A DNA stretch of 64,000 nucleotides from the NCBI GenBank assembly GCA_021795715.1, contig JAJYPD010000002.1, positions 62,001 to 126,000 on the forward strand, written 5' to 3'. Origin of the DNA: Pseudomonadota bacterium (GTDB lineage: Bacteria > Pseudomonadota > Gammaproteobacteria > Acidiferrobacterales > Acidiferrobacteraceae). Made by a program: the position numbers and the translations under genes. The notes below the pieces were generated by a model. The model was not told the DNA's origin. It saw nothing but the letters and a program-made list of their open reading frames with translations, and searched no databases. Positions within the stretch are counted from its first letter, which is position 1. Each line of letters starts with the position of its first letter. Below are positions 1,457 to 16,426 of the stretch, one piece after another.

Positions 1457-1459
1457 GCA

Positions 1460-2509
1460 ATGCAAAAGACCGTACTAGTGGTAGGAGCGGGGCCTGCCGG
1501 CCTTTCCGCAGCAGCTGGCGTCGCAGCCAGCGGCCTCAATGTTGTCCTGGTCGAGAAGGCGGCGCGGTTGGGCGGCACGCCCATTCTGTCGGGTTACGCC
1601 AAGCTTGTGCCTTCCGGTGAATGGGCGAAGGATGCCATGGGCCGCATGGTCAAACGCGTCGAGGACGCCTCGAACGTGAAGATCCACAAGGAGACAAAGG
1701 TCACCAAGCTCTCCGGTGAGGCGGGCCATTTCACCGCCACCTTGTCGAACGGGTCCACCGTGGAATGTGGGTCCGTGATCCTGGCCACCGGCTTTACGCA
1801 CTTCGATTCGATCAACAAGCCGGAGTGGGGTTTCGGGTCCTATGAGGACGTGGTCACCACGACCCAGGTCGAACAGATGGTGGCCGCCGGCAAGATTGCC
1901 TGCCCATCCGATGGCCGGGTCCCCGAGCGGGTTGCCATCTTGCTGTGCGTGGGGTCCCGCGACCGGCAGATCGGCCGCGAGTGGTGCTCGAAGATCTGTT
2001 GCACCGTGTCGACCAATCTGGCGATGGAGATCAAGGAACTGTCGCCGCAGACGGATGTGTTCATCTATTACATGGACATCCGCACCTTTGGTTTGTACGA
2101 GGACCGCTTCTACTGGAAGTCGCAGGAGGAGTTCAAGACCAAGTTCGTCAAGGCACGTATCGCCGAGGTGACGCGCTCGCCTGACGGCCGTCTGTTGGTC
2201 AAGGGTGAGGATACGCTCGTCAAGCGGCCTATCGTCATCCCGATGGACATGGTCGTGCATGCAGTCGGCATGGATCCCAACGAGGACAACCCGGAAATCG
2301 CGCGCGTGTTTGGTGTCGGTCTTGAGAAGCATGGTTTTGTCGATCGTGCCGAGCACTATACCAACACCTGCGGCACGACGCGGCGCGGCATCTATGCCGT
2401 GGGTGCGGCCCTGGGTCCGGAGACGATCGACGACTCCATTTCCCAGGGACAGGCTGCGGCCATGCGCGCAGTGGCGGATCTCAATGCTCTGGTTCAAAAG
2501 ACGGCCTGA
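1460..2509 (+). CDS. shdrA: sHdrA, FAD-binding subunit of the sHdr complex
   Basis: A 349-residue flavoprotein with an N-terminal dinucleotide-binding GxGxxG motif (Gly9, Gly11, Gly14) and the acidic strand end VLVEK. A cysteine cluster at Cys163, Cys176, Cys180 and Cys181 matches the iron-sulfur site of sHdrA proteins. It lacks the extra ferredoxin domains of methanogen HdrA, as expected for the sulfur-oxidising type. The C-terminal part keeps the FAD-binding stretch in which a glycine-rich AVGAALG segment precedes DDSISQGQAAA. It sits between the two HdrB/C sets and probably bifurcates or transfers electrons within the complex. Its last 26 nt overlap the preferred start of the next gene. 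Confidence 0.88.
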   Translation: MQKTVLVVGAGPAGLSAAAGVAASGLNVVLVEKAARLGGTPILSGYAKLVPSGEWAKDAMGRMVKRVEDASNVKIHKETKVTKLSGEAGHFTATLSNGSTVECGSVILATGFTHFDSINKPEWGFGSYEDVVTTTQVEQMVAAGKIACPSDGRVPERVAILLCVGSRDRQIGREWCSKICCTVSTNLAMEIKELSPQTDVFIYYMDIRTFGLYEDRFYWKSQEEFKTKFVKARIAEVTRSPDGRLLVKGEDTLVKRPIVIPMDMVVHAVGMDPNEDNPEIARVFGVGLEKHGFVDRAEHYTNTCGTTRRGIYAVGAALGPETIDDSISQGQAAAMRAVADLNALVQKTA

Positions 2510-3347
2510 TGCCGCCTCGGGCGGCGGCGGGACCGAATCGGTCGAACCGGTCGGTCTCGCGGTCGAACTCGATCCGCGTGTCTTTGGGATGAAATTCCGG
2601 GTCTTGCTGGAGGCCTTGTCGGAAGGGGGCGGCATCGACTGGTTTCTTGCTGCCTTGGCGGCCAAAAACACACTCTTTGCCGAAGCCCTGGCGCCCGGTG
2701 CCCTAAGCCAGCTGGATCTGGGCAAAGTCGAGATTCTGCTCGAAACGGTCATGCCGGCCCGCAAGCGCGTGTGGCCTTCGCTGGTCGCGGCTGGCGAGGA
2801 GCCGGTGCGTGCCGCCATCCAGGAGCTGCTCTACGGCAAGGCGCCGTTGCAGGCGCGTATGGAGGCGTTCGTGGCGGCACTGCCTGTGGCACCCGATCTC
2901 GACAACAAGGCGGCGAAGACCGTGCGGCGGGCGCTTGGTGATTTTGCAGCCGAGCTTTTGCACTTCCGGTCGCCCGTCCAGTATCCGTTGATGACGCGGT
3001 GGGTCTGGGATCAGGGAACGCATGCCGGCGCGCTGCGGGAACTGGTCAAGGGCGGAGATGCGCTGGACAAGGTCGAACTGGGGTCGGAACCGGGGGTATA
3101 CGAGGCGGGGAGGCAGTGGGTGGCCGACCGCATGGCCGAACAGGGCATGTACCGGGAGCCCCATTTCATCGTCGACATCTTCCTGGCCCACGCGTATGCG
3201 GACTACATGCGGGCCTTGTCGAGCGGCATGGGTCTTTTGAACGCGGACTTCGGCGGCAAGAACGATCCCCTCGAGGTGGTCAGGAAGCTGCTTGGGATCG
3301 ATCAGCCGCGACGTACGGAATCACGAGTCAAAAAAGCGCTGCATTAA
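2484..3347 (+). CDS. shdrH: sHdrH, conserved sHdr-locus protein of unknown function
   Basis: A 287-residue soluble protein in the position always taken in sHdr loci by the conserved protein called 'Hyp' or sHdrH, between hdrA and hdrC2. I see no cofactor motif and almost no cysteine. The chain looks mostly helical, with a charged Lys/Arg C-terminus. Two starts are possible. ATG 2484 (MLWFKRRPDAAS) overlaps shdrA by 26 nt; ATG 2589 would remove 35 residues. I chose 2484 because no other ATG, GTG or TTG lies between and overlaps are common here. Function is unknown; the assignment rests on gene order and size. Confidence 0.75.
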   Translation: MLWFKRRPDAASGGGGTESVEPVGLAVELDPRVFGMKFRVLLEALSEGGGIDWFLAALAAKNTLFAEALAPGALSQLDLGKVEILLETVMPARKRVWPSLVAAGEEPVRAAIQELLYGKAPLQARMEAFVAALPVAPDLDNKAAKTVRRALGDFAAELLHFRSPVQYPLMTRWVWDQGTHAGALRELVKGGDALDKVELGSEPGVYEAGRQWVADRMAEQGMYREPHFIVDIFLAHAYADYMRALSSGMGLLNADFGGKNDPLEVVRKLLGIDQPRRTESRVKKALH

Positions 3348-3371
3348 GCGCAAGCAGGAGAAACGGATTAC

Positions 3372-4121
3372 ATGGCTATTCACGAGAAGTCATTGATTGA
3401 CAGCGACCGCATCAAGACCAGTGACAATCTGGTGCTTGATGGGGTGGATGTGTCGGGGCACTGGAACACCATGATTCTGCCCCGTTATCTCAGCAACTAT
3501 GACACCGATTTCGGGCGCAAGATCCAGACGTTTACGGGCGCGGAAAATGTGCATCGCTGCTGGCAGTGCGGATCGTGCACCAATTCCTGCACGGTGTACG
3601 CGCAGAACACGGATTTCAATCCGCGTTACTGGATCTATCTGACGAATCTCGGCCTCAAAGACGACCTTTTGAAGGACAAGGACATCATCTGGACGTGCGT
3701 GTCGTGCAACAAGTGCACGAACATCTGTCCGAAGGACGTGCGTCCGGAGGGCGTGATGAAGGCGCTTGCGCACTGGCTCGAGGAAGAGGGCCATACGCCG
3801 CACACGAAATCTTCGATTTTCGACGAGGAATTCACGGGCCAGGTGTATGAGACCGGCCGCATCGAGGATTCGCGCGTCATGATAAACTTCTTCCGGAAGA
3901 CGAACCAGCCGCTGACGCCGCCGTGGTTCATCGAGCTCACCAAGCGCATGATGAAGCATCTGCCGGTGGGATTCCTCATGCATATGGGTCTGCATCTCGT
4001 TTTCAAGCCGCGCACGAAGTCGTGGGGCCGCACCGGCCAGGTTCTGCGTGAATACGTCCGTGAACAGAAGGAAGCGGCCCACAAGGCCCGCACCATGCCG
4101 AAGGAGGCTGTCCATGTCTAA
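3372..4121 (+). CDS. shdrC2: sHdrC2, two-[4Fe-4S] subunit of the sHdr complex
   Basis: A 249-residue ferredoxin-like protein with two classical CxxCxxCxxxC/P-type motifs: Cys63, Cys66, Cys69, Cys73 and Cys109, Cys112, Cys115, Cys119, the latter followed by Pro. This is the hallmark of HdrC, which wires electrons between HdrA and HdrB. A Shine-Dalgarno sequence AGGAGA lies upstream of ATG 3372. It overlaps the next gene, shdrB2, by 8 nt, so the C2 and B2 subunits are probably translationally coupled. The C-terminal third has no clear cluster ligands and ends in a basic, alanine-rich tail. Confidence 0.88.
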   Translation: MAIHEKSLIDSDRIKTSDNLVLDGVDVSGHWNTMILPRYLSNYDTDFGRKIQTFTGAENVHRCWQCGSCTNSCTVYAQNTDFNPRYWIYLTNLGLKDDLLKDKDIIWTCVSCNKCTNICPKDVRPEGVMKALAHWLEEEGHTPHTKSSIFDEEFTGQVYETGRIEDSRVMINFFRKTNQPLTPPWFIELTKRMMKHLPVGFLMHMGLHLVFKPRTKSWGRTGQVLREYVREQKEAAHKARTMPKEAVHV

Positions 4122-5025
4122 GGTTGCTTATTACCCCGGATGCGCACTCGAGGGATCAGGCGGCCCCTACGACAAGTCCACGCGCGCACTGGTCGACAAG
4201 CTTGGCCTCGAGATGGAAAACCTCGACGACTACAACTGCTGTGGTGCGATGGAAGTGAAAAACATCCATCCCATGCTGCAGACCTACATGTCGGCGCGCA
4301 ACATGGCGATCGCCAGCGAGAAGATGGGCTTTGATACGGTGATGGCGCCCTGCAACGGCTGCTATCACAACCTGAAGAAGGCGGAATACGAACTGGCGAC
4401 GTCGCCTGAACACCTGGAGACGGTCCAGGATCTGGCCCGCAAGGCGGACGATCCGGTCTACAAGGGCGACGTGCGCACCGTGCATCTTCTTGAGTGGCTG
4501 ATGGAAGAGTTGGGTCCTGAGGGCATCAAGGACAAGATGGCGAAGAGCCTGAAGGGCGTGAAGATTGCCAACTATTACGGCTGCATGTACACGCGCCCGC
4601 GTCAGATCTTCCCGGAAAAGGATCAGGGCCCGGGTTCCGAATCCAGCTACAAGCCGCATTTCATGGACGATCTGCTCGCCGCCGCCGGCGCCGAGAACGT
4701 GGATTTCCCGCTGAAGACCGCGTGCTGCGGTGGCGCGCATACGCTGTCGGACTCGGATACGTCCACGCAGCTTGTGCTGAATATTCTGCAGGCGGCGGAA
4801 GAGGCGGGCGCGGAAGTCATCGCCACGGAATGCCCGACCTGCCACTCGGGTCTGGAAATGCACCAGATCCGCGCGGAGACGGAGTTTGGTATCAAGACCA
4901 ACGTGCGTATCGTGTATTTCACGCAGTTGCTGGGTCTGGCCATGGGCCTGTCGCCGCGCAAGGTCGGTATCCATGAAAACATCAGCGACTCGCTGGATTT
5001 CTTCAAGGACAAAGGCGTCGCTTAA
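4114..5025 (+). CDS. shdrB2: sHdrB2, second CCG-domain subunit of the sHdr complex
   Basis: A 303-residue HdrB-type protein. The first CCG motif comprises Cys10, the Cys42-Cys43-Gly pair, Cys80 and Cys83. The second comprises the cysteines of YYGCMY, ACCGGAH and ECPTCHSG. This arrangement binds the noncubane [4Fe-4S] clusters that act on disulfides or sulfur-carrying thiols in the family. Start ATG 4114 follows AAGGAGG at 4101-4107 and overlaps the end of shdrC2 by 8 nt; an upstream in-frame start at 4048 would lie wholly inside shdrC2. The stop is followed after 29 nt by the first lipoate-binding protein, the presumed substrate carrier. Confidence 0.88.
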   Translation: MSKVAYYPGCALEGSGGPYDKSTRALVDKLGLEMENLDDYNCCGAMEVKNIHPMLQTYMSARNMAIASEKMGFDTVMAPCNGCYHNLKKAEYELATSPEHLETVQDLARKADDPVYKGDVRTVHLLEWLMEELGPEGIKDKMAKSLKGVKIANYYGCMYTRPRQIFPEKDQGPGSESSYKPHFMDDLLAAAGAENVDFPLKTACCGGAHTLSDSDTSTQLVLNILQAAEEAGAEVIATECPTCHSGLEMHQIRAETEFGIKTNVRIVYFTQLLGLAMGLSPRKVGIHENISDSLDFFKDKGVA

Positions 5026-5054
5026 GCGCTTTTAGATGACCGGACGGAGGCGGC

Positions 5055-5501
5055 GTGGAGTTCAACGGCTGTGAGTTTCGTCCAGAGCTGTACTATGACA
5101 GTGAGTACCAGATCTGGTTGCGCCGGGAAGAGGACGGAACGATCACGGTCGGCATGACGGATATCTCGCAAACCATCGCCGGCAAGATCCTTCACGCGCG
5201 CGTCCGGCGGCCGGGTACCATGCGGCCGGTGGGCAAACCGGTGGCCACCATCGAAAGTGGCAAATGGGCCGGCCCGATTCCGAACGTGTTCGACTGCGTC
5301 ATCGTCGAGGGCCATCAGCAGGTTTTGGATGATCCAAACCTGCTGAACATCGAACCGTACGAGGCCTGGATCGCCCGCGTGCGGCCGATCGCACCCATCG
5401 GCGAGGTGCTGGCGGGGCTCGTGACGGGCGAACAGGCGGCGCAGGGTTACGCCGAGCGCTGCCGCCGGGACGATATCAAATGCACGCGGGGCATTCGTTG
5501 A
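5055..5501 (+). CDS. lbpA: LbpA1, lipoate-binding GcvH-like protein
   Basis: A 148-residue GcvH-fold protein. Its likely lipoylation site is Lys70 in the motif IESGKW, the same ESxKx hairpin as glycine-cleavage H protein. No glycine-cleavage T or P genes are nearby. In sHdr organisms LbpA carries the sulfur substrate on lipoate, not aminomethyl groups. The start is GTG 5055, 5 nt after GGAGG at 5046-5050. Compared with the second LbpA at 6000 it has a longer C-terminal tail with two cysteines (near CRRDDIKC). It ends in a 1-nt overlap with the DsrE gene, indicating one transcript. Confidence 0.85.
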   Translation: MEFNGCEFRPELYYDSEYQIWLRREEDGTITVGMTDISQTIAGKILHARVRRPGTMRPVGKPVATIESGKWAGPIPNVFDCVIVEGHQQVLDDPNLLNIEPYEAWIARVRPIAPIGEVLAGLVTGEQAAQGYAERCRRDDIKCTRGIR

Positions 5502-5899
5502 TGTCGGACGCGCATTATCTCGACAACGAAGAGAAGTCGGTGCTGATCGTCATGACGAGCGGACCGTCCACGCCCCACCGCTGCGCGACGCCGTTTTATA
5601 TTGGCGCGATCCTCGCGTCGATGGACGCCGATGTGAAGATCTTCTTTACCATGGAAGGCGTGAATTTGGTGAAGAAAGGGGTTGCGGAAAATCTGGTGGC
5701 GATGGAGGGCGGCAAGCGGGTGATTGATTTCATGCGCGATGCAAAGAGCGCGGGTGTCAAGTTGCACCTGTGCCTGCCAGCCCTTCCCGGCTATAAAATC
5801 GACGAGAAAACGGATATTATCGATGAGGTTGACGAGTTCTCCGGCGGCGGAGCGCTCGCGGATCTGATTCTATCCTGCGATAAAGTGCTGTTTTTCTGA
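5501..5899 (+). CDS. DsrE-family sulfurtransferase (DsrE3-like)
   Basis: A 132-residue protein of the DsrE/DsrF-like fold, with an N-terminal strand VLIVMTSGP and the segment ADVKIFFTMEGV typical of the family. Cys91 in KLHLC lies where family members hold the persulfide-carrying cysteine; Cys28 and Cys126 are additional. DsrE-type proteins pass sulfane sulfur between TusA or rhodaneses and the sHdr system. The start at ATG 5501 shares its A with the lbpA stop. An in-frame ATG at 5480 would add seven residues and overlap lbpA by 22 nt. Position between two lbpA genes suggests it loads sulfur to or near LbpA (inference). Confidence 0.8.
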   Translation: MSDAHYLDNEEKSVLIVMTSGPSTPHRCATPFYIGAILASMDADVKIFFTMEGVNLVKKGVAENLVAMEGGKRVIDFMRDAKSAGVKLHLCLPALPGYKIDEKTDIIDEVDEFSGGGALADLILSCDKVLFF

Positions 5900-5999
5900 C
5901 GGTTCTGGCGGTGGGTCCATCCCGGGGATTGATTTGGACGGACCATCGGCATTAATTAGCGTTTTTCTTATTTTCGGTTCACACGGGAGGCATTGCTCA

Positions 6000-6437
6000 A
6001 TGGGTGCGGTACGCGGCTGTAACATTCCGGAAGACCTGAGCTACAACGTCGATAACAACGTCTGGGCGCGTCGCGAGGCGGATGGCACGGTCACGATCGG
6101 CCTGACCGCCTACGCCTGCTCGCTCGCCGGCGAAATCGTTGCCTACACGCCGAAAAAGGCGGGCAAGGACATCGCCAAGGACAAATCCTGCGCGACCGTC
6201 GAGTCGGGCAAGTGGGTGGGTCCGGTGAAGACGCCTGTGACCGGCGCGATCACCGCGGTGAACGATGCGGTGGCGAGCAAGCCTGGCCTTATCAACAAGG
6301 ATCCCTATGGTGAAGGCTGGGTTGTGAAGATGAAGCCGAGCGACTGGGACGGCGAGTCGAAGACCCTGAAGACGGGTGGCGATGCGCTGAAGGCGTTCGA
6401 CACCAAGATGGAAGCGGAAGGATTCAAGGGTTGCTAA
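6000..6437 (+). CDS. lbpA: LbpA2, second lipoate-binding GcvH-like protein
   Basis: A 145-residue GcvH-like protein with the predicted lipoylation site Lys71 in VESGKW. It aligns well with the LbpA1 core (RREADGTVTIGLT against RREEDGTITVGMT) but diverges elsewhere, is lysine-rich near its C-terminus and ends in Cys145. It starts at ATG 6000 after GGGAGG; the 100 nt before it are the longest gap inside the sulfur cluster, so it may have its own promoter or processing site. It is followed by a strong hairpin (6442-6468). The role as sulfur-substrate carrier for sHdr is known for the family; which of the two LbpA proteins serves sHdr here is not visible. Confidence 0.87.
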   Translation: MGAVRGCNIPEDLSYNVDNNVWARREADGTVTIGLTAYACSLAGEIVAYTPKKAGKDIAKDKSCATVESGKWVGPVKTPVTGAITAVNDAVASKPGLINKDPYGEGWVVKMKPSDWDGESKTLKTGGDALKAFDTKMEAEGFKGC

Positions 6438-6441
6438 GCAA

Positions 6442-6468
6442 GCAAGGCGCGGTTTTCCCGCGCCTTGC
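6442..6468 (+). terminator. strong hairpin after lbpA2, no U-tract
   Basis: An 11-bp perfect stem (GCAAGGCGCGG at 6442-6452 with CCGCGCCTTGC at 6458-6468) closes a 5-nt loop TTTTC. No T-run follows, so it is not a canonical intrinsic terminator. It lies exactly between the sHdr/LbpA genes and the lipoate-assembly genes and could reduce read-through or protect the 3' end of an abundant upstream mRNA. It also covers a possible TTG start at 6465 of the next gene, which I therefore rejected. Confidence 0.6.
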
Positions 6469-6485
6469 GCATCGATGAAGGGTCT

Positions 6486-7634
6486 ATGGGCGCTTGGGCT
6501 GATATTTTGGGGCAGGTGGAGCCACTGGAAGACCTGGCGTTTGACGAGCGGCTTTTGGCGCAGCTCGAAGGACGCAGGGATCCGCTGCCGGCGATCCACT
6601 TCTACACGCCGACGTTCAAGAACTACGCGAGCAGCGAGATCAAGGGCTGCGGCCGGAATGCGTGGCCTGCCGTGTCGATTACAGGCGGCGACTGCAAGCT
6701 GAACTGCGATCACTGCAAGGCGAAAATCCTCGAGCCCATGATTGCGGCGAAAACGCCGGAAGACCTGTGGCGCGTGGTCAACGAGGTGATCGCCAACGGT
6801 GCCGGCGGCATGTTGTTGACGGGTGGTTCCAACCACCGCAACGAGGTGGAGTACGATCCCTACTACGAGACGATCCGGCGTATCAAGGATGAGTTCCCGC
6901 TGTTCCGGATCGCCATGCATACGGCGCTCGTGGATGACGCGATCGCCGGCCGCATGGCCGACGCGGGCATCGACGCGGCCATGATGGACGTGATCGGATC
7001 GCAGGATACGATCACACAGGTCTATCACTTAAAGCGCACACCCGAGGATTTCGAGCGGGCTCTTGAGGCGCTGACGAAAACCTCGATGAAGGTGGTGCCG
7101 CACATCGTGGTGGGACTGCACTACGGCCAATTGCTCGGGGAATGGCGCGCACTGGAGATGGTTGCGCGCCATCAGCCCGCCGCACTCGTGCTCGTGGTGG
7201 TCATGCCGACGTACGCCAACGAGCTGCGGCCCTTCGTCGCACCGGATGCTCATGAGGTCGGCCAGTTTTTCCTGGATGCCCGGCAGGCGCTGCCGGAGCT
7301 CCCATTGCTCCTTGGCTGTGCGCGGCCGGCCGGAGAGGTCAAGCGCGTCATCGACGCGTACGCCGTGATGGCCGGTGTCAACGGCATGGCGCACCCCAGT
7401 GACGGAATGGTGGAGCTCGCGGCGCGTCTGGACCGGCCGGTGCGTGTGACGGCGTCTTGTTGTTCGATCGCCGTCGGTGACGAAGTGATGGCGCTCGACG
7501 GGGCCGATGAGGGTTTCGAGATCGATCTGGCGCGCATCCTCGACGAAGAACGCGCGCGGCGGGCGGTGCGATCGGGTCCGCTGGGCCGCATCAGGGTGGT
7601 GAGCGATTCGGGCTCGGGCTGTTGTAGCGCATGA
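6486..7634 (+). CDS. lipS1: LipS1-like radical SAM lipoyl synthase subunit
   Basis: A 382-residue radical SAM protein. Cys70, Cys74 and Cys77 (GDCKLNCDHC) form the CxxxCxxC motif for the SAM-binding [4Fe-4S] cluster. Further cysteines, Cys55 and two CC pairs near the C-terminus (ASCCSIAV, SGCCSA), could hold the auxiliary cluster that donates sulfur. LipS1 and LipS2 together insert two sulfurs into protein-bound octanoyl groups, replacing LipA. LipS1 versus LipS2 was assigned mainly from gene order (lipS1-sLpl-lipT-lipS2) and from the other synthase being more biotin-synthase-like. ATG 6486 was preferred over TTG 6465, which lies within the hairpin. Its stop overlaps the next gene (ATGA). Confidence 0.82.
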   Translation: MGAWADILGQVEPLEDLAFDERLLAQLEGRRDPLPAIHFYTPTFKNYASSEIKGCGRNAWPAVSITGGDCKLNCDHCKAKILEPMIAAKTPEDLWRVVNEVIANGAGGMLLTGGSNHRNEVEYDPYYETIRRIKDEFPLFRIAMHTALVDDAIAGRMADAGIDAAMMDVIGSQDTITQVYHLKRTPEDFERALEALTKTSMKVVPHIVVGLHYGQLLGEWRALEMVARHQPAALVLVVVMPTYANELRPFVAPDAHEVGQFFLDARQALPELPLLLGCARPAGEVKRVIDAYAVMAGVNGMAHPSDGMVELAARLDRPVRVTASCCSIAVGDEVMALDGADEGFEIDLARILDEERARRAVRSGPLGRIRVVSDSGSGCCSA

Positions 7635-8701
7635 CGCGGGAATGGCGGCTCCTCGATACGGGGCTGCGGTCGGCCGCCGAGAACATGGCTCTCGACCGGA
7701 CCCTGCTTGAGTCGGCTCAGGCGGGGGGGATCAACACCCTGCGATTCCTCCGCTTCAAGCCATCCGCTTTGATTGGTTTTCATCAGAGCGCAGGGCAGGA
7801 ACTGCATCTGGAATACTGTCGCGAACACGGTATCGATGTGTCGCGGCGCATCACCGGCGGTGGCGCCCTTTACTGTGACGAGGGCCAGATCGGCTGGGAG
7901 CTGTTTCTGGATCGGCGGACCTTCGATACGGCCGACATGCTCGCCATTGCAGGCAAGGTGTGCGGGATGGCCGTGCAGGGTCTGCGGCGGCTCGGTATCG
8001 ATGCGGCGTTCCGTCCACGCAATGACATCGAAGTGGCGGGCCGCAAGATCGGCGGGACCGGCGGCGCGTTCGACGGCGAGGCGCTCTTGTATCAGGGTAC
8101 GGTGCTGGTGGACTTCGACATCGAGCGGATGCTGAAAGTCTTGCGCATCCCCCAGGAAAAGCTGTCCGACAAGGCCATCGCGTCGGCGCGCGAACGCATC
8201 ACGACGCTAAACGAGCTCGCCGGCGACACGATTACGATTGCGGCCGTGCAGGAGGCGCTGACGGGTGCTTTTGCGGATGGATTCGGCGTCACGTGGCGCG
8301 CGCAGCAGCTGACCGCCGATGAGCAGGGGCTCTTTGCCCGCTACCGGCAGGAAATGGATTCGCAGGCATGGGTCTACGAAACCGACCGTCCGAGGCTCGA
8401 TGTGGCGACGGTCAGTGCGGTGCGCAAGACGTCGGGCGGGCTTGTGCGCGTGATGCTGCTGGTGGATCGGCCGCGGGAGCGCATCAAGCAGGCGTTCATA
8501 ACCGGCGACTTTTTCGTCAACCCAAAGCGCACGATCGTGGATCTGGAGGCCGCGTTACGCGATTCCGCCTACGAACGTCTGGCGGATATCGTAGACGGGT
8601 TTTTTGCCACGCACCCGGCGCAGATGCTGCTTTTGACACCCGCCGACATCCGGGCGGTGATCGAGGAGGCGTTGGCGCAAGAGGATCGGGCGGCATCATG
8701 A
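7631..8701 (+). CDS. sLpl(AB), lipoate-protein ligase for LbpA
   Basis: A 356-residue protein of the biotin/lipoate ligase fold. The lipoyl-AMP-binding motif RRITGGGA spans residues 72-79, and NDIEVAGRKIGG contains the conserved catalytic lysine Lys139. The chain continues past the LplA core into a C-terminal accessory region (about residue 240 on), so both LplA and LplB parts are on one polypeptide, as in the sHdr-linked ligase sLpl(AB). It should attach octanoate or lipoate to the LbpA lysines. It overlaps lipS1 by 4 nt (7631-7634) and lipT by 4 nt (8698-8701), so the three are probably translated together. Confidence 0.85.
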   Translation: MTREWRLLDTGLRSAAENMALDRTLLESAQAGGINTLRFLRFKPSALIGFHQSAGQELHLEYCREHGIDVSRRITGGGALYCDEGQIGWELFLDRRTFDTADMLAIAGKVCGMAVQGLRRLGIDAAFRPRNDIEVAGRKIGGTGGAFDGEALLYQGTVLVDFDIERMLKVLRIPQEKLSDKAIASARERITTLNELAGDTITIAAVQEALTGAFADGFGVTWRAQQLTADEQGLFARYRQEMDSQAWVYETDRPRLDVATVSAVRKTSGGLVRVMLLVDRPRERIKQAFITGDFFVNPKRTIVDLEAALRDSAYERLADIVDGFFATHPAQMLLLTPADIRAVIEEALAQEDRAAS

Positions 8702-9762
8702 ACGCCACCGCGTTCGACGTGCTGGTGGTGGGGCTTGGACCGGGTGGCGCGGCGGCGGCTTTGGCCGCGGCGCGCGCCGGTCTGTCGGTTCTGGCCGTAG
8801 ACAAGCGGCGGCAGATCGGCGAGCCGGTGCAGTGCGCCGAATTCGTGCCGCTGCCCATGGGCCGCTATGCCAAGCCGGCTTTGGTGCAGCAGATCGCCGG
8901 CATGCGCAGTATTTTGCCGTCGGGTGCCATCGAGCGATCGGATTTTCCGGGCCTCATGGTGGATCGGGCCGCCTTCGATCAGGCGATCGCAACCGAAGCG
9001 TCGCGCAATGGGGCGCTGCTGCGTGTCCAGACGGCTTTGAAGGATCTGCATGCCCGGCGCGGCGAGGCGGTGTTGCGCGGTGCGAATGGACAGACGGAAG
9101 TGGCGCGCTATCGCGTGCTGATCGCGGCCGATGGTCCGCATTCGCCGGTGGCGCGCCTCATCGGCTGGCCGGCACTGCCAACAGTGGAGACCCGCCAGTA
9201 CAGTTTGCCGTTGTTCCGGTCCTATACGGACACCGACATCTGGCTGTCGGATGCTTATCCAGGCGGCTATGCGTGGCTGTTTCCGAAAGGGAACGTCGCC
9301 AACGTGGGGTTGGGTGCCGACCCCCGCCTGTTGCCGGACATGAAGCGCCCGCTCGAAACACTGTGCGTACAGCTTGCCGGCGAGGGCCTGGTGGGCCGCG
9401 CCATCCTCGCGAGGACGGGTGGCGCCATTCCGGTCGGTGGCATGCGGCGCTCGCTCGTGCATGAGAACATCCTGTTCGTCGGTGATGCGGCAGGTCTTAC
9501 CCACCCCATCACCGGCGCCGGCATCGCCAGCGCCGTGCTGTCGGGCGAGAAAGCAGGGCAGGCGGCCGCGGCGTTCCTTGCGGGCCGGGCCGGCGCCCTG
9601 GCGGAATTTGACGAAGACATGCGTGATGAATTCGAAGACAGCCTGGCGCGGGCGGTTGCGCGCCGGCAGTGGTTGATGGAGCGTTGGCACACACCTGCAG
9701 CGCGGTTGGATGCGACCCACAAGCGGGGCTGGGTTGCGTTTCGTGAGTATTTTGCCGCTTAA
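8698..9762 (+). CDS. lipT: LipT, FAD-dependent oxidoreductase of lipoate assembly
   Basis: A 354-residue flavoprotein of the geranylgeranyl-reductase/PHBH type. It opens with the dinucleotide motif GLGPGGAAAA, has the PVQCAEF segment characteristic of geranylgeranyl-reductase-like enzymes near residue 44, and the second FAD motif FVGDAAGLTHPITGAG in the C-terminal half. LipT is conserved with LipS1/LipS2 in sHdr organisms and has been proposed to supply electrons to the radical SAM lipoyl synthases; this role is not shown by sequence. Start ATG 8698 overlaps the sLpl stop. The longer frame reaching back to 8368 lies inside sLpl and was rejected. Confidence 0.82.
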   Translation: MNATAFDVLVVGLGPGGAAAALAAARAGLSVLAVDKRRQIGEPVQCAEFVPLPMGRYAKPALVQQIAGMRSILPSGAIERSDFPGLMVDRAAFDQAIATEASRNGALLRVQTALKDLHARRGEAVLRGANGQTEVARYRVLIAADGPHSPVARLIGWPALPTVETRQYSLPLFRSYTDTDIWLSDAYPGGYAWLFPKGNVANVGLGADPRLLPDMKRPLETLCVQLAGEGLVGRAILARTGGAIPVGGMRRSLVHENILFVGDAAGLTHPITGAGIASAVLSGEKAGQAAAAFLAGRAGALAEFDEDMRDEFEDSLARAVARRQWLMERWHTPAARLDATHKRGWVAFREYFAA

Positions 9763-9782
9763 AGATTGTTGAGGAGATCATC

Positions 9783-10913
9783 ATGAGCGTTCCTGCCGAC
9801 ACGGTCAGCCCGGTCACCTTCTATCGGCCGAACTACCATATCAAGACCCCCGACATGCGTTCACCGGAATACGTACAGATGTCGACGGCGGCCGCGATGA
9901 CCCTCGGGTTGGTGCCCGGTACGATGCATAGGACGGGCTGTACACACTGTCTCAATCTCCTCGTGACGTATGCGGAAGGCTGCCGCGCCAATTGTGCGTA
10001 TTGTGGGCTTGCGCGTCACCGTGAAGAGGCGCGCGACTACGCGGATCGCAACTTCATCCGGGTCGACTGGCCGACCGTGCGTTTCGATGAGGTCATAGAG
10101 CGCATGGTCGGCGGCAGCGATGCCTCGCAGTTTCAGCGCATGTGCATCTCCATGATCACGCATCCGGATTCTGACGCCGATACGATGGTGTTGCTGAAGA
10201 AGTGGATGGCGGCGTTGCCGCATGTTCCTGTATCGATTCTGTCGAACCCGACATCGATGGAAAAGGCCGACCTCATCGCGTTGCGCGACGCCGGCGCCGA
10301 CATTTTCACTGTGGCGCTCGATGCCGTGACACCCGAGATTTTCGACCGCACGCGCGGCAAGGCGGTTGACAGCCCGCACAAATGGGACAAGTACTGGCAG
10401 GCGATCGAATGGGCTGCGGAGGTGTTCGGTCCCGAGAAATTCGGTGCGCATCTGATTTGCGGCATGGGCGAGACCGAAGAAGACATCCTGCGGGTGGCCC
10501 AGCGCATCACGGACATGGGGGGACACAACCACATGTTCGCATTCTTTCCGGAGCGCGGATCGCTGATGGAGGACTGGGCGCCGGTCCCCCGTGATCAATG
10601 GCGTCGTGTCCAGCTTGCGCGCTTCGTGATCGACTACGCAGGCGGACACATCAGCAAGATGCGCTTCGACGAAGAAGGGCGCGTTGTGGATTTCGGCATG
10701 GCCAAGGAGGATCTGGCGGCGTTGATCGAGTCCGGCAAGCCGTTCCAGACATCGGGCTGCCCGGGCAAGGACGACGAGGAGATCTCGGCCTGCAACCGGC
10801 CTTACGGTGATTCCAGTCCGTCCGACATCCGGTCCTTCCCGTTTGCCTTAAACCGCCGCGACGTCGAAATCGTCAAGCGGCAGATGGCGGGCGAAGACAT
10901 CGGCACGCTCTGA
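9783..10913 (+). CDS. lipS2: LipS2-like radical SAM lipoyl synthase subunit
   Basis: A 376-residue radical SAM protein similar to biotin-synthase-family enzymes. Cys67, Cys71 and Cys74 (GCRANCAYC) form the CxxxCxxC motif, preceded by Cys53 and Cys56 (GCTHC). The C-terminal SGCPG and ACNRPYGDS segments could ligate an auxiliary cluster. No biotin genes are present, and the neighbours are the lipoate ligase and LipT, so a role in sulfur insertion with LipS1 is much more likely than biotin synthesis. It starts 20 nt after lipT with a GGAG ribosome-binding site and ends before a 13-bp hairpin terminator. Confidence 0.82.
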   Translation: MSVPADTVSPVTFYRPNYHIKTPDMRSPEYVQMSTAAAMTLGLVPGTMHRTGCTHCLNLLVTYAEGCRANCAYCGLARHREEARDYADRNFIRVDWPTVRFDEVIERMVGGSDASQFQRMCISMITHPDSDADTMVLLKKWMAALPHVPVSILSNPTSMEKADLIALRDAGADIFTVALDAVTPEIFDRTRGKAVDSPHKWDKYWQAIEWAAEVFGPEKFGAHLICGMGETEEDILRVAQRITDMGGHNHMFAFFPERGSLMEDWAPVPRDQWRRVQLARFVIDYAGGHISKMRFDEEGRVVDFGMAKEDLAALIESGKPFQTSGCPGKDDEEISACNRPYGDSSPSDIRSFPFALNRRDVEIVKRQMAGEDIGTL

Positions 10914-10970: not shown

Positions 10971-12125
10971 TTATGAGAACCGCCGGCTGAAGCTCAAGCC
11001 AAAGAGCTGTGCCGATCCCCGGTATGTCCCATCATAGGCGCTCGATCCGTTCGGGTTCGAGCCCGCCGGCGCTGTGGCCGCATTCACTGTGCGCGGGTTG
11101 AAATGGATGTACTGGTAGCCCGCGCTCAGCGTCCATGGCCCCATCCGCTGGGTGGCGCCAAGACTGGCCACTTCCTGGCTGGCGGCAGGCAGGCGCGCGG
11201 AGAAAGGCGCCGGACTGACATCGTTGTAACCAAGACCGGCACGCAGTGCGACCCCCTCGCCGAGTCCGTACCGGAAACCCAGATGATAGCCGTTCACATT
11301 GCCTGCACTGGTCAGCATGGCCGGCCCGGCCGTGGTCGCGGGACTCGTAAATCCGCTCCAGCCACTGCGCGTGAAATCCACTTCCATCCCGAGCCGCTTT
11401 GTGATGGTGCCGTGAACGCCAAATGCCATCTGCCAGGGGAGGTGAACGCTCGTCGCGCCCCCGATCGGCAGATTGACGGCGGAACGGAAGGTGGCGCCCA
11501 AACCGACAGGACCGATGCGGGTGGCGACGCCGACATTGCCGCCAAAACGGCTGCCGGATCCGTCAACCGCCATCGCAGGCGTGTTCGCGGCGAAATCGCG
11601 CGCGTAGTAATAGTCGGCCCCGACATTGATGCCGACGTCGCCGATACGGTAGGTCAGGTTCGGGCTGGCGTCATAAACCTGCAGTTCCGTGTATGTCGGC
11701 GCAAGCCCCGCGTTGGTGCCGCTTAAAGCCGGGAACGCATTGGCCGGCCACGCGATGCTGCTGTCGTAAGGTTCGTTCAGGGAAAGCCCAAAGCGGGTGT
11801 TGTCTGTCAATTCGGCATTGATGAAAGCATCCGGTCTTGTCGCCCAGTGCGCGGTGACCGCGGGGATGCGCTGGGACTGGCCGGGCGGCTGGACGCTGGT
11901 GTGGAGATAAAGGCCCAGTACACCGATTTCATAGCCGCTTTTGTGAAAGGCCATGAGGGCCGGGTTGTACGCCAGCGCGCCCAGGCTGCCGGTGTTGGCG
12001 ACGACAGCACCGCCTTCGCTTACGCCCAAAATCGACAGCGGGGCGGGTGCATAGGCGGCGGCGTGGACGGCCCCTGGCAGCAAGAGCATGGCAAGTGGCC
12101 CGAAAACCGGCCCAAGACGACGCAT
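10971..12125 (-). CDS. FadL/OmpP1-type outer-membrane channel protein
   Basis: A 384-residue exported beta-barrel protein. It starts with a signal peptide (basic MRR, hydrophobic stretch, cleavage near VHAAA). It then shows the OmpP1/FadL-like segment near residue 54 in which a small-residue stretch leads to YNPAL, followed by alternating strands and a C-terminal Phe-Ser, with the aromatic SFSRRF pattern of barrel proteins. FadL channels move hydrophobic molecules across the outer membrane. AAGGAGA lies upstream of its ATG. It is divergent from a second FadL-like gene at 12388. Its substrate is unknown; next to the sulfur cluster, polysulfur or elemental sulfur is conceivable. Confidence 0.75.
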   Translation of the reverse strand: MRRLGPVFGPLAMLLLPGAVHAAAYAPAPLSILGVSEGGAVVANTGSLGALAYNPALMAFHKSGYEIGVLGLYLHTSVQPPGQSQRIPAVTAHWATRPDAFINAELTDNTRFGLSLNEPYDSSIAWPANAFPALSGTNAGLAPTYTELQVYDASPNLTYRIGDVGINVGADYYYARDFAANTPAMAVDGSGSRFGGNVGVATRIGPVGLGATFRSAVNLPIGGATSVHLPWQMAFGVHGTITKRLGMEVDFTRSGWSGFTSPATTAGPAMLTSAGNVNGYHLGFRYGLGEGVALRAGLGYNDVSPAPFSARLPAASQEVASLGATQRMGPWTLSAGYQYIHFNPRTVNAATAPAGSNPNGSSAYDGTYRGSAQLFGLSFSRRFS

Positions 12126-12229
12126 AACGTCTCCTTAGAATGTGAATGAACAAGAGGGTCCATGATCGGCCATACCCGCGGGCCGTTCAAGCGCCGTCAC
12201 GAATCGCCGGTCGGAAAGATGTTGCCATA

Positions 12230-12258
12230 TTGACAGGAACGTGACGGACGCGGAATAT
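12230..12258 (+). promoter_or_regulatory. sigma-70-type promoter for the 12388 gene
   Basis: A perfect -35 TTGACA (12230-12235) is followed after 17 nt by GAATAT (12253-12258), one base from the TATAAT-like pattern at its strong positions. It would give a leader of about 120 nt that is purine-rich and ends in AGGAGGA just before ATG 12388. This is the clearest promoter in the window and suggests high expression of the outer-membrane gene. Confidence 0.6.
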
Positions 12259-12387
12259 TGACTCCATCCTCGACGTCGCTCAAAAAGACCCTTTCAAAAG
12301 TGCGCCGACAAAACAAAAGAAGACGAGAGGAGAGGGCGGCCTAGAGGCTGCATATCCAAAGGGTGTCCATTAGGAGGACATAAAACA

Positions 12388-13689
12388 ATGATTAGCAAGA
12401 AGAAGTGGGCCTTGGCTTCCGCGGTGGCTGCGGCTCTCGCGATGCCGGTCAGCGCGTTTGCGACGACTGCCGGTTACTTTCAGCTGGGTTACAGCACGAT
12501 CGCCGATGGTATGGCCGGCGCCTCCGCCGCCCTGCCGCAGGATGCCATGATCATGGCGACCAACCCTGCCGGCATCGCCATCGTTGGCAACCATCTGGAC
12601 ATCGGGGTGGCGGGTTTCTGGCCGTTTCGGGGTTATTCGAGTGGTACTGCCGGCACAGCCGGTTGTTCGGCAGCGGGTTGCGGTCCCATGCCCAACCCGG
12701 GTTCTTATGGCAGCAGCACCAATTTCTTCCTCATCCCGCATATCGGCTACAGCCAGAAGCTGAGTCACGACAACTACTTCGGTCTGGCTATGTACGGCAA
12801 TGGCGGTATGAACACCAACTACCACACCCCAGTCGCAAAGGGGACGGTGCCAGGCGGGCCCTTCTTTGGGGGTCAAACGGGCGTCAACCTGACACAGATG
12901 TTCCTGCAGGCGACCTATGCCCGCCGCTTCCTGCGCCATGACGCCATCGGCTTGAGCGTCATCTATGCCTACCAGCGGTTCAGCGCCGATGGCCTGGGCG
13001 GGTTTGCGGGCTACTCCGCCAGCCCAAGTAACCTGAGCAACAAGGGTACGGCGACTTCGGATGGCGTTGGCGTCAAGGTCGGCGGCCAGTTCCAGCTGTT
13101 CCCGGGGTTGAGCCTCGGTGTGGCCTACTCACCGCGCATGACGATGTCGAAGTTCTCCAAGTACTCCGGCCTCTTTGCAGACCAGGGCCGGATGGACATC
13201 CCCGCCAATGGCGTCGTCGGTCTGGCGTTCCAGCCGACCAACCGTCAGGCCTTCGATTTCGACTTCCAGCGCATTTTCTATGCGGATGTGCCGGCGATCG
13301 GCGACTCCGTTTCCCCGCTTTTCAGTGGCAAGCTGTTCGGCTCCACCAATGGCCCGGGGTTCGGCTGGCAGGATATCGATGTCTACAAGCTGGGCTACCA
13401 GTACCGCGTGACGCACGACACGACCTGGCGCGTCGGGTTTGCGTATAACAACCAGCCGATCCCGCCGTCGCAGGTTCTGCTGAACATCATCGCCCCTGGT
13501 GTCATCCAGCGCCATGTCACGCTGGGCGTCACGACACGCGTCGCACCCGGCCAGGATGTGAGTGTGGCGGCCATGTACGGTCTGCCACAGGCGATCTATG
13601 GCAATGCCCCCGCCGCTTTTGGCGGTGCGCCGATCAAGATCAGCATGCACGAATATCAGATCGAGGCGAATTGGGGTTGGAAGTTCTAA
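12388..13689 (+). CDS. FadL/OmpP1-type outer-membrane channel protein
   Basis: A 433-residue exported protein. A signal peptide (MISKKK, hydrophobic stretch, cleavage near AFATT) precedes the FadL/OmpP1 N-terminal pattern, where ADGMAGASAA and ATNPAGIA correspond to the plug region of FadL. Repeated amphipathic strands follow, and the chain ends in the aromatic WGWKF typical of barrel proteins. It is about 50 residues longer than its divergent neighbour and only distantly similar. A near-consensus promoter and a strong AGGAGGA site precede it and a GC-rich terminator follows, indicating a strongly expressed monocistronic gene. The transported compound is not shown. Confidence 0.8.
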   Translation: MISKKKWALASAVAAALAMPVSAFATTAGYFQLGYSTIADGMAGASAALPQDAMIMATNPAGIAIVGNHLDIGVAGFWPFRGYSSGTAGTAGCSAAGCGPMPNPGSYGSSTNFFLIPHIGYSQKLSHDNYFGLAMYGNGGMNTNYHTPVAKGTVPGGPFFGGQTGVNLTQMFLQATYARRFLRHDAIGLSVIYAYQRFSADGLGGFAGYSASPSNLSNKGTATSDGVGVKVGGQFQLFPGLSLGVAYSPRMTMSKFSKYSGLFADQGRMDIPANGVVGLAFQPTNRQAFDFDFQRIFYADVPAIGDSVSPLFSGKLFGSTNGPGFGWQDIDVYKLGYQYRVTHDTTWRVGFAYNNQPIPPSQVLLNIIAPGVIQRHVTLGVTTRVAPGQDVSVAAMYGLPQAIYGNAPAAFGGAPIKISMHEYQIEANWGWKF

Positions 13690-13718
13690 GCACACAGGCA
13701 GTCAAGGTGATGTAACCC

Positions 13719-13743
13719 AAAGGGGGCCCTCGTGGCCCCCTTT
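13719..13743 (+). terminator. intrinsic terminator after the FadL-type gene
   Basis: A perfect 10-bp stem, AAAGGGGGCC (13719-13728) with GGCCCCCTTT (13734-13743), closes a 5-nt loop CTCGT. The 3' arm ends in TTT and is followed by GCGTTTG. Confidence 0.75.
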
Positions 13744-13811
13744 GCGTTTGAAAAACCACAGAAAGTGTGTCCGAGAAGACCACACAAAAAAACCATACTA
13801 GGAGAGTGACC

Positions 13812-14717
13812 ATGAGCAACGTCATGAAAGTGATATGTCTGGCGGGAGGCCTGGCGGTGAGCACAGGGGCAATCGCGCACGAGATGCGCTACAAGCCCTT
13901 TATCCTCGGTCACGAAAGCACCGGTTCCCTGCAGGCGGTGGTCAGCGCCACACGCATGGCACTGCAAGCCCATGGCTTTAGGGTGGTAGGCCAGTATTCC
14001 CCGGTGCCAGGGGCGACGGTGATCTGTGCCACGGATCCGGAACTGCTGCATGCGGCGGCCCACGCGCGGCGTAATGGCGGGTTTGGCGCGGTACAGCGGG
14101 TCTCGGTGACCCAGGTGCAGAACACCATCCAGGTGTCCTACGCGAACCCGGCCTATGTCGCCATTGCCTACGGACTCGGACCGCTGCCGACCACCGTGGC
14201 AAACCTGAAGGCGGCCCTTGGTGCCAAATTGTCCTTCGGGGTGCATCGGGGGCTTACCCGCAGTGACCTGAAGCCGGGCAACTACCACTACTTCATCGGC
14301 ATGCCGTACTTCGAGAACGTCGACCACATCCGCAAATTCAAGACCTATGCCGATGCGGTCAATACGGTCAGGCGGAACCTGCAGGCGCACGTCGCCGGTA
14401 CGTCGCTCGTCTACGAGGTCAACGTACCCGGCACCAAGCAGCCGACGACCGTGTTTGGGGTGGGCTTGAGCCAGGGTAAGGGGGCAGATGCCAAGGTGTT
14501 GAGTGTGACCGACTACAAGACCTACAAAGGCAACGCCTATGCACCCTATGAGATCATGGTCGAGGGGCGGCGCGTCATTGCGTTGCGGCCGCGCTATCGC
14601 ATCGCCGTCAATTTCCCCGGCACGCCGATGATGGGTTCGCACGGATTCATGTCGATCATGAGTGCGCCGGGAGCCATCCGTCACACGTTGGCGCATGTGG
14701 CCGGCAGGCACGACTGA
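13812..14717 (+). CDS. exported protein of unknown function
   Basis: A 301-residue protein with a clear signal peptide (MSNVMK, hydrophobic core, predicted cleavage after AIAHE or nearby). The mature part begins with a segment of alternating helices and strands (QAVVSATRMALQAHGF, then VICATDPELL) that faintly recalls DUF302-type folds, but I do not recognise the family. Only one cysteine, Cys75 by my count, remains in the mature protein. ATG 13812 follows GGAGAG and gives the signal peptide; an upstream ATG at 13767 would bury it. It lies in the same direction as the FadL-type gene, past a terminator, and has its own terminator, so it is probably expressed independently. Confidence 0.6.
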   Translation: MSNVMKVICLAGGLAVSTGAIAHEMRYKPFILGHESTGSLQAVVSATRMALQAHGFRVVGQYSPVPGATVICATDPELLHAAAHARRNGGFGAVQRVSVTQVQNTIQVSYANPAYVAIAYGLGPLPTTVANLKAALGAKLSFGVHRGLTRSDLKPGNYHYFIGMPYFENVDHIRKFKTYADAVNTVRRNLQAHVAGTSLVYEVNVPGTKQPTTVFGVGLSQGKGADAKVLSVTDYKTYKGNAYAPYEIMVEGRRVIALRPRYRIAVNFPGTPMMGSHGFMSIMSAPGAIRHTLAHVAGRHD

Positions 14718-14805: not shown

Positions 14806-15207
14806 ATGAAGTCCATCAAGGTCACCGATATCGGGCAGCTCAAAAACGAGCTGAACAAGTATCGCAAGGGTAAGAAACTCGAAATCCGGCAGTTCAATCA
14901 GGCGGCTCGCCTGGCTTGGCTTGGCCGGGTCACCATGATGCCGCTTGAGCCAGATGATCCCGAAACGGAGTCATACCTGGCTTATGTGGATTTTCCCGAG
15001 GGATTGAGCGCCCAGTTGCTCAACATCGACGAAGATCTGGTCGGCCGCATCTTCATCCTCGACGGCGAGCAGGGCCGCTATCTGGCCGAGATCATTGAAC
15101 AGGGCGTGCATGAGCGCGCCGCGTTCTACCAGGAGCTCGACCGGCGGGATTTCTATTTCGGCAAGTTCTACAAATCCACGGACACGCAGGACAAAGCGGG
15201 CGGCTAG
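14806..15207 (+). CDS. conserved-looking cytoplasmic protein, function unknown
   Basis: A 133-residue soluble protein without signal peptide, membrane segment or cysteine. The first 25 residues are lysine-rich; the middle is acidic (PDDPETES, NIDEDL) and the C-terminal part looks helical with several aromatic residues (DFYFGKFY). I do not recognise a domain. ATG 14806 follows AAAGGCGG; frames starting at 14662 run through the terminator and were rejected. It lies 4 nt before the receiver-like gene at 15212, so the two are likely co-transcribed and may act together. Confidence 0.6.
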   Translation: MKSIKVTDIGQLKNELNKYRKGKKLEIRQFNQAARLAWLGRVTMMPLEPDDPETESYLAYVDFPEGLSAQLLNIDEDLVGRIFILDGEQGRYLAEIIEQGVHERAAFYQELDRRDFYFGKFYKSTDTQDKAGG

Positions 15208-15211
15208 GCTC

Positions 15212-15595
15212 ATGGCGGCACCCACCATAGCCGACCGGCTCAACCGGCGGTTTCTGCTGATGACGAACGACGCAGACGTGGTGAACCGGCTGCGGGTTCA
15301 TGTCCCCGCCGATTGGCAGATGCGGGTGGTGACGAATCTGGACGATGTCGGCGGCTGGAGTGACATCCTCCTCTACCGCTTCCTGCTTCTGGATCTCGAT
15401 GAAGTCGAGAGCTTCGATCCCATCGACGTCATCCGTGTCTTGCGGATGGAGTATCTGCTGCAGATCGCCGTGTTCTGTTTCGGCGGTGATGCGGATGTTC
15501 GGGATGAAATGCGGATGTCCCGGGCTGATCGCTTCTACGAACGCGATCAGCTCGTGACGGTATTGCCGCAATTTCTGGCGCAGTACGGCTGGTAG
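15212..15595 (+). CDS. small degenerate receiver-like protein
   Basis: A 127-residue single-domain protein whose strand pattern resembles a CheY-like receiver. RFLLMTNDAD would be the first strand with the acidic pair, FLLLDLDE the third strand with possible phospho-acceptor Asp, and ADRFYERDQL the last loop. The conserved Lys of true receivers appears to be replaced in this last loop. No output domain or kinase gene is nearby. It starts 4 nt after the preceding unknown gene, with no strong ribosome-binding site, so translation is probably coupled. The receiver assignment comes from the pattern only and could be wrong. Confidence 0.5.
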   Translation: MAAPTIADRLNRRFLLMTNDADVVNRLRVHVPADWQMRVVTNLDDVGGWSDILLYRFLLLDLDEVESFDPIDVIRVLRMEYLLQIAVFCFGGDADVRDEMRMSRADRFYERDQLVTVLPQFLAQYGW

Positions 15596-16012: not shown

Positions 16013-16426
16013 ATGACAACCTCCCCCTTGCAGTCCCTGATGGCGGACGTGGATCGGGAGATCCGCGCCCTGGAGCAGGCACCGAGCCGCGATGCGTGTG
16101 ATCTGCAGCCCCTTGTCGAGCACGCGCTCCTCCTTGCCAACCGCCTCATGCTGGCTTTTGCCGGGGTGATGGATCATCCGCTGGACGGGCTGGGGGTTGA
16201 TGCCGATCCTCTTGAGGTCTTCCGGGTTTTCGTCAAGGGCGAGCCCTCCCTGAATGCCATTCGCGACAACGTGCGCGAGCTCGTGTATTATCGGAATTGC
16301 CTGGCCGCCGGACGCGCGGATGCGTTGCCGGCGCGGCCTGCGGCGATGGCGGTGCGGACCGTCCGCCATATCTACCTCTATCTGCGTACCCGCGCCATCA
16401 AAGAGCATGGCCTTGAAGGCGCATGA
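16013..16426 (+). CDS. helical protein of unknown function upstream of the HDAC-fold gene
   Basis: A 137-residue soluble, mostly helical protein with no recognised motif. It has an amphipathic N-terminal helix (SLMADVDREIRALEQ) and a basic C-terminal helix (VRHIYLYLRTRAIK). Its stop overlaps the start of the histone-deacetylase-fold gene by 4 nt (ATGA at 16423-16426), so the two are translationally coupled and may work together. ATG 16013 has a weak upstream site; an in-frame start at 15935 would add 26 residues rich in Cys and Arg that look non-coding. Confidence 0.6.
   Translation: MTTSPLQSLMADVDREIRALEQAPSRDACDLQPLVEHALLLANRLMLAFAGVMDHPLDGLGVDADPLEVFRVFVKGEPSLNAIRDNVRELVYYRNCLAAGRADALPARPAAMAVRTVRHIYLYLRTRAIKEHGLEGA

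Follow-up and report, generated by a model that had tools for sequence, protein, structure and literature searches.

Bacteria that oxidize elemental sulfur (S0) have to bring it across the outer membrane, a step for which the true transport proteins have not yet been confirmed experimentally (PMC10045233). OprD-like porins, Omp40 and Omp44 have been proposed as an outer-membrane route for S0 uptake (PMC10045233), although OprD belongs to a porin family other than FadL. The SoxT/YeeE importers (PMC11582611) provide an import step for sulfur oxidation in bacteria with the sHdr system, but they lead into the cytoplasm, and the outer membrane, FadL, porins and DUF302 are all absent from the main text of that paper. 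The passages that mention FadL in PMC10487802, PMC4287430 and PMC10092268 do not connect it to sulfur oxidation, and we found no such tie in the open-access papers that could be searched and opened, which is no proof of novelty. Here we describe a stretch of 64,000 nucleotides from a member of the Acidiferrobacteraceae (assembly GCA_021795715.1, contig JAJYPD010000002.1, positions 62,001 to 126,000), called the window in what follows, in which two FadL-type genes (FadL1 and FadL2) and a gene for a secreted protein, here called SecX, lie beside an sHdr and lipoate-assembly cluster (Table 1). We lean, with modest confidence, towards the view that FadL2 works with SecX as a module of outer membrane and periplasm that handles hydrophobic zero-valent sulfur, in bacteria that have both Sox and a cytoplasmic route of sulfur oxidation.

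The gene neighbourhoods carry much of the evidence. We assembled 82 SecX loci, i.e., one neighbourhood each from 80 of the 86 other SecX genomes (see below), plus the distant locus L037 and the window; G001, G061, G064, G270, G299 and G360 were left out, as were extra SecX copies per genome. Neighbouring genes were clustered, and 20 clusters were compared with Pfam by one representative each. In 53 of the 82 loci SecX is directly preceded by a FadL gene in the same orientation (gap of -25 to 562 nt), and a FadL gene is present anywhere in the locus in 54, vs. none of 40 control loci taken from 12 single-contig genomes. At least one sulfur marker (Sox, sHdr-lipoate, DsrE2, TusA or rhodanese) was present in 48 of the SecX loci and in three of the controls (Fisher P 2e-8), a comparison that is indicative, as the marker profiles were built from SecX loci, which favours detection there; with Sox, lipoate or DsrE2 as the markers the figures were 41 and one. 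When FadL was in the locus, 39 of 54 had a sulfur marker. SoxB in these loci was verified by position against the genome-wide SoxB search. Two settings recur. The first, much like the window, has LbpA, LipS1, LplA, LipT and LipS2 before FadL and SecX, and in the second SoxA, SoxY, SoxZ, a cytochrome c and an M48 peptidase on the opposite strand are followed by rhodanese, TusA or DsrE2, FadL and SecX (the labels SoxZ, TusA and LipT are our own assignments, presumed from similarity or familiar motifs).

The same association appears at the level of whole genomes. A search for SecX (E 1e-3) across 369 genomes sampled from the class found it in 87 of them, representing 45 family codes. SoxB, at a threshold of E 1e-110 that selects 150 genomes (148 of them above the curated cut-off), occurs in 82 of the 87 SecX genomes vs. 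68 of the 282 without SecX. The link to sulfur oxidation that had been suggested from the position of the genes is thus well supported, by recurrent gene order and by genome co-occurrence. The original prediction had pointed to sHdr, and sHdrB1 is indeed enriched (15 of 87 SecX genomes vs. 7 of 282), but only weakly so when SoxB genomes alone are compared (14 of 82 with SecX vs. 6 of 68 without, Fisher P 0.11). In a random sample of 80 SoxB genomes, 40 with SecX and 40 without, rDsr or sHdr was present in 37 and 27 of them, respectively (Fisher P 0.01), where a cytoplasmic route was scored from sHdrB1 or from DsrA, the latter either exceeding its cut-off or present as a long fragment (G033, G187). 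The sampled SecX genomes without such a route were G270, G285 and G299. A dedicated link of SecX to sHdr alone is therefore unsupported; the link is to Sox plus either cytoplasmic route, and the earlier idea is at once corrected in this sense and strengthened into a sulfur-oxidation module that recurs and whose partner family has no name. In a phylum-wide draw SecX was rare (8 of 299 genomes, the weakest at E 6e-4), and among the nine short SecX loci from that draw one had SoxY, TusA and DsrE2 beside SecX and one had FadL.

That sulfur is the cargo, that it moves inward and what each part does we infer. Within the same sample, SoxC above cut-off was less frequent with SecX (4 of 40 vs. 12 of 40, Fisher P 0.05), which, together with the Sox association itself, would suit a module working outward: zero-valent sulfur that Sox produces in the absence of SoxCD would be moved out of the periplasm, or kept dispersed, and would end up deposited extracellularly or at the outer membrane. 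Co-occurrence does not tell the direction, and FadL channels are passive and could work either way. However, the link to TusA, DsrE2, rhodanese and sHdr/rDsr points to consumption of the sulfur, and the FadL proteins characterised so far are uptake channels. We regard export or deposition as unlikely; the direction of the module is probably uptake.

Both FadL genes of the window belong to PF03349 (Toluene_X), with 71.3 bits for FadL1 and 53.3 bits for FadL2 against a cut-off of 29.7, which confirms the proposal of two FadL/OmpP1-like barrel proteins next to the sHdr genes. The NPA motif, which we take to be a FadL-family feature of the hatch, is invariant at N54 P55 A56 across five FadL1 rows and at N59 P60 A61 across 55 FadL2 rows (window included in both). 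An AlphaFold2 model of FadL2 from 55 rows (predicted local distance difference test, pLDDT, 89) has a barrel with an N-terminal hatch, with 16 DSSP strands, 14 of which have at least eight residues by manual count, as in a 14-stranded barrel. It compares with E. coli FadL at Z 39.4 over 350 residues, the alignment starting at residue 28 (38.8-39.3 with the structures 1t16/1t1l), and at Z 34-36 with the monoaromatic hydrocarbon channels TodX, TbuX and CymD (ca. 36 for TodX). Judged by its model, then, FadL2 is a true FadL barrel. Like E. coli FadL it shares the Pfam family, the barrel with hatch and the NPA motif, but the identity is 17-18%, and FadL2 differs from it in being linked to SecX and sulfur genes. 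The only clear sequence matches of FadL2 in the PDB were TodX (E 1e-10), CymD and TbuX, from which it differs in its neighbours; FadL1 had no PDB match up to E 1. FadL1 falls in a branch of its own kind: in a quick tree, 18 of the 19 divergently oriented FadL rows and one other row form a supported branch that holds the FadL1 of the window. A divergent FadL pair like that of the window could be read from the gene listing in 15 of the 82 SecX loci. Besides these two, no further FadL-family gene was found in the genome of origin (2.1 Mb, 94.9% complete).

SecX remains, as was originally noted, a secreted protein of no recognized family. There was no Pfam match up to E 0.05, and NCBIfam gave only a chance-level match far under cut-off; PLSDB had no plasmid match. 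By manual reading the start is probably ATG 13812 rather than GTG 13767, and the N-terminus is a signal-like peptide. A model from eight rows had a mean pLDDT of 61, with much of the N-terminal half well predicted and most of the rest not. This N-terminal domain resembles DUF302 structures (Foldseek, then structure comparison with VIA), namely 1q9u (Z 13.7, root-mean-square deviation 2.4 over 111 residues) and 1j3m (Z 13.0). PDB 7tj1, titled fluoride transporter CrcB, also ranks among these DUF302 structures, and its title may be wrong. With hhalign, the profile of the N-terminal half matched, at 95.8% and over 103 columns, 29 DUF302 proteins taken from the 30 loci that a search of 20 genomes had given, and the C-terminal half matched the same proteins at 2.8%. 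By fold and profile only the N-domain is DUF302-like, and the Pfam model of that family (PF03625) matches three other places of the genome of origin, not SecX. SecX is, in consequence, a diverged DUF302 N-half followed by an unassigned C-half of ca. 155 residues, for which the model confidence is too low for a fold assignment and which the structure comparison hardly probes. An internal duplication of DUF302 is unsupported (aligning one half with the other by hhalign gave 0.7%, and 0.4% in an earlier run). At most of the positions conserved in at least 85% of 84 SecX sequences the residue is Pro, Gly, Tyr, Phe, Leu or Ala.

The DUF302 relationship brings in another possibility. For a DUF302-family gene that lies between soxA and soxB, a part in trithionate oxidation has been suggested (PMC5037610), and a DUF302 protein in sox clusters was speculated to help periplasmic Sox or polythionate chemistry (PMC5037610, PMC5248467). 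Given its DUF302-like N-domain, SecX might have some other role in sulfur oxidation, e.g., by serving Sox or polythionate enzymes as a chaperone or docking protein in the periplasm, and FadL might let through a lipid or quinone-like factor that the outer membrane needs to stay intact during growth on sulfur. Sulfur markers are still present in 9 of the 28 SecX loci without any FadL, in keeping with such a role. However, the tight pairing of FadL with SecX described above suggests a joint role at the outer membrane, and we consider this explanation quite unlikely.

We also looked at cysteines, by which an outer-membrane protein might activate S8 through thiols. The FadL2 of the window has a cysteine pair (residues 93 and 98) in a low-confidence loop, and a similarly spaced pair near that place was seen in 6 of 49 SecX-linked FadL sequences, that of the window among them, vs. 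1 of 54 other rows; 26 of the 49 have no cysteine after residue 25. None is conserved in the 84 SecX sequences, 54 of which lack any cysteine after ca. residue 25. Thiol activation was thus set aside, there being no shared pattern in FadL and nothing conserved in SecX, and since the FadL pair is rare and SecX has no conserved cysteine, persulfide-relay chemistry is not supported by the sequences as a shared mechanism. As an uptake module, FadL2 would instead let S8, long polysulfides or organic polysulfanes pass the outer membrane passively, much as fatty acids pass through FadL and toluene through TodX, and SecX would receive or dock the cargo in the periplasm through hydrophobic contacts, which would be non-covalent as no cysteine is conserved. 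These two steps are suggested by family, signal peptide and gene company. Further in, the sulfur would be passed to rhodanese, TusA, DsrE2 and inner-membrane importers, and from these to sHdr or rDsr. FadL1 may provide another channel, with a different specificity or working in the opposite direction. The FadL pair and SecX are good candidates for an outer-membrane route of solid sulfur. A fuller version can be offered only tentatively: FadL2 and SecX would be the outer-membrane entry for elemental sulfur, made of a FadL-type channel for S8 or polysulfanes and a new family of periplasmic acceptors that join a DUF302-like domain to a new one, common to Sox plus rDsr and Sox plus sHdr bacteria across many families, with the divergent second FadL clade as an accessory channel.

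Several observations weigh against a sulfur uptake module. Among the SecX loci, 29 of 82 have no FadL directly upstream (4 of these at or near a contig end) and 34 show no sulfur marker, several of them on short contigs. Five of the 87 SecX genomes lack SoxB, 68 of the 150 SoxB genomes lack SecX, as do 7 of the 22 sHdr genomes, and the co-occurrence statistics ignore the kinship of genomes, with no phylogenetic correction. The cysteines of neither FadL nor SecX point to thiol chemistry with S8. Moreover, the support comes from family membership and gene context, and the direction could equally be export. A FadL of Acidithiobacillus thiooxidans was reported to be up-regulated under acid stress and was read as a fatty acid transporter (PMC10487802). 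The relatives of FadL2 add to this list. A scan yielded 63 loci, seven of them close relatives from metagenome bins (L004-L010) and 56 other, named and more distant. Sulfur markers were lacking from 38 of the latter, Methylomonas and Ancylomarina among them, although many of these loci are short; methanotrophs and Bacteroidota are among the homologues without markers. The remaining 18 (L011, L012, L020, L023, L024, L025, L027, L029, L033, L037, L038, L040, L043, L044, L058, L061, L062, L066) have Sox, TusA, DsrE2, rhodanese or lipoate genes within the sequence available, adjacent or up to several kb away, and include Alphaproteobacteria, Acidobacteriota and a metagenome-assembled genome of Armatimonadota, with FadL2 homologues beside TusA or DsrE2. 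The original prediction had named occurrence mainly in hydrocarbon or fatty acid users without sHdr as a result that would speak against it, and for FadL2 alone this is partly the case, but the pair goes with sulfur genes. FadL2 alone is no marker of sulfur oxidation; the FadL-SecX pair is the better one.

These relatives, the name of the family, the nearness of FadL2 to TodX, CymD and TbuX, and the tie of the A. thiooxidans protein to acid stress and membrane lipids (PMC10487802) would all be compatible with ordinary genes for fatty acid or hydrocarbon uptake that lie beside sulfur genes by chance. A further point in this direction is that 3-hydroxyacyl-CoA dehydrogenase (3HCDH, PF00725) was found in 13 of 26 SecX genomes, which also tells against uptake of sulfur. 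However, the other 13 lack it, and it had no match in the genome of origin, where other beta-oxidation enzymes were not searched, so FadL2 does not qualify as a fatty acid importer in the strict sense, i.e., one with the degradation pathway in its genome. In two SecX genomes (G082 and G311) a 3HCDH match has, no more than 0.3 kb away, a FadL gene that matches much better than the SecX-linked one, which lies elsewhere and has a far lower Pfam score, so that the paralogues look as if they had separate jobs. Fatty acid uptake is disfavoured on these grounds, in spite of the 13 genomes with 3HCDH. Uptake of aromatic hydrocarbons was rejected, as no ring-hydroxylating dioxygenase alpha subunit was found in the genome of origin or in any of the 26 SecX genomes. 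With a sulfur gene order far above that of the control loci, chance proximity of this kind seems very unlikely to us, and sulfur uptake through FadL and SecX remains the reading that we prefer.

Table 1. Positions of the features discussed, counted from the first nucleotide of the window.
Feature	Positions	Strand	Evidence
FadL1, FadL/TodX-family outer-membrane barrel, 384 amino acids	10971..12125	-	Pfam PF03349, NPA motif, tree branch
Possible sigma-70-like promoter of FadL2	12230..12259	+	10 of 12 consensus positions; weak evidence
FadL2, FadL/TodX-family outer-membrane channel, 433 amino acids, predicted barrel with N-terminal hatch	12388..13689	+	Pfam PF03349, AlphaFold2
GC-rich hairpin in the FadL2-SecX gap, attenuator or terminator-like element	13718..13744	+	Sequence; similar in six relatives
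SecX, secreted protein of 301 amino acids, diverged DUF302 N-domain and unassigned C-terminal domain	13812..14717	+	No Pfam or NCBIfam family; fold and profile comparison
sHdr and lipoate-assembly cluster	44..10913	+	NCBIfam matches, many below curated cut-offs
Conserved gene downstream of SecX, 133 amino acids, family unknown	14806..15207	+	13 of 82 loci, window included
Conserved gene in the downstream block after SecX, 127 amino acids (family not searched)	15212..15595	+	10 of 82 loci, window included

In the window itself, the cluster ahead of the trio reads HdrB1, HdrA, a hypothetical protein, HdrC2, HdrB2, LbpA, DsrE, LbpA, LipS1, LplA, LipT and LipS2 (the sHdr subunit names and the LbpA and LipT labels are those we presume to apply). 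With hdrB1, hdrA, hdrC2 and hdrB2 accompanied by lbpA and lipoate assembly genes it is an sHdr system, and hdrC1 would precede the window start; SoxB is on the same contig, 8.4 kb ahead of that start. LipS2, the last of the sHdr-associated lipoate genes, is the immediate neighbour of FadL1, and since FadL1 is transcribed towards LipS2 and away from FadL2, the trio lies beside, and not inside, the sHdr operon. One of the FadL genes had been placed behind a near-consensus promoter and a terminator. The promoter sequence is there (TTGACA-18-AATATT), but a scan found two such sites vs. 1.6 in shuffled sequences, which is not above chance. The same scan lists no terminator after FadL2 in the window, despite the strong GC hairpin in the 122-base gap to SecX. 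A similar hairpin precedes SecX in all six close relatives examined (L004, L005, L006, L007, L008, L010), in some followed by a run of T, and not in the distant L037. Lying in the gap and being kept in close relatives, it suggests that SecX is expressed at a lower level than FadL2 or independently of it. No Rfam family matched anywhere in the window at gathering scores.

Some further genes around SecX deserve mention. Downstream of the module the window has a histone-deacetylase-family gene (16423-17586), the same cluster being present in 5 of the 82 loci, and a gene of this family adjoins LipS1 in an alphaproteobacterial contig (L023, from ca. 3666, minus strand); it may be part of lipoate metabolism in sHdr bacteria. 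After the homologue of the 133-residue gene, a lipoate-protein ligase cluster gene is found in L109, L114, L118, L129, L137, L146, L170, L175 and L176, and the window has none there. A methyl-accepting chemotaxis protein gene, often just downstream and on the same strand, is present in 16 of the 82 loci (L100, L102, L106, L108, L112, L115, L119, L121, L123, L124, L135, L138, L147, L149, L155, L157) and is possibly a receptor for sulfur compounds. In L099 (genome G311) LbpA, LipS1, LplA, LipT and LipS2 lie with TusA and DsrE2 beside FadL-SecX, and the genome has no sHdrB1 match at E 1e-40; here the lipoate assembly genes are tied to sulfur genes without the sHdr type of the window. Finally, seven strong-SoxB genomes of 1.0-1.6 Mb (G108, G109, G142, G225, G226, G325, G351) are not among the SecX genomes. 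If they belonged to symbionts, or to streamlined cells, with no encounter with solid sulfur, their lack of SecX would fit a role in uptake, size being the sole evidence.

For the outer-membrane step of sulfur entry, which has had no confirmed protein (PMC10045233), a recurrent two-gene module can now be named, the SecX side of which has no family name. The FadL-SecX module goes with Sox and with rDsr or sHdr, and this makes the question of how sulfur passes the outer membrane a testable one.

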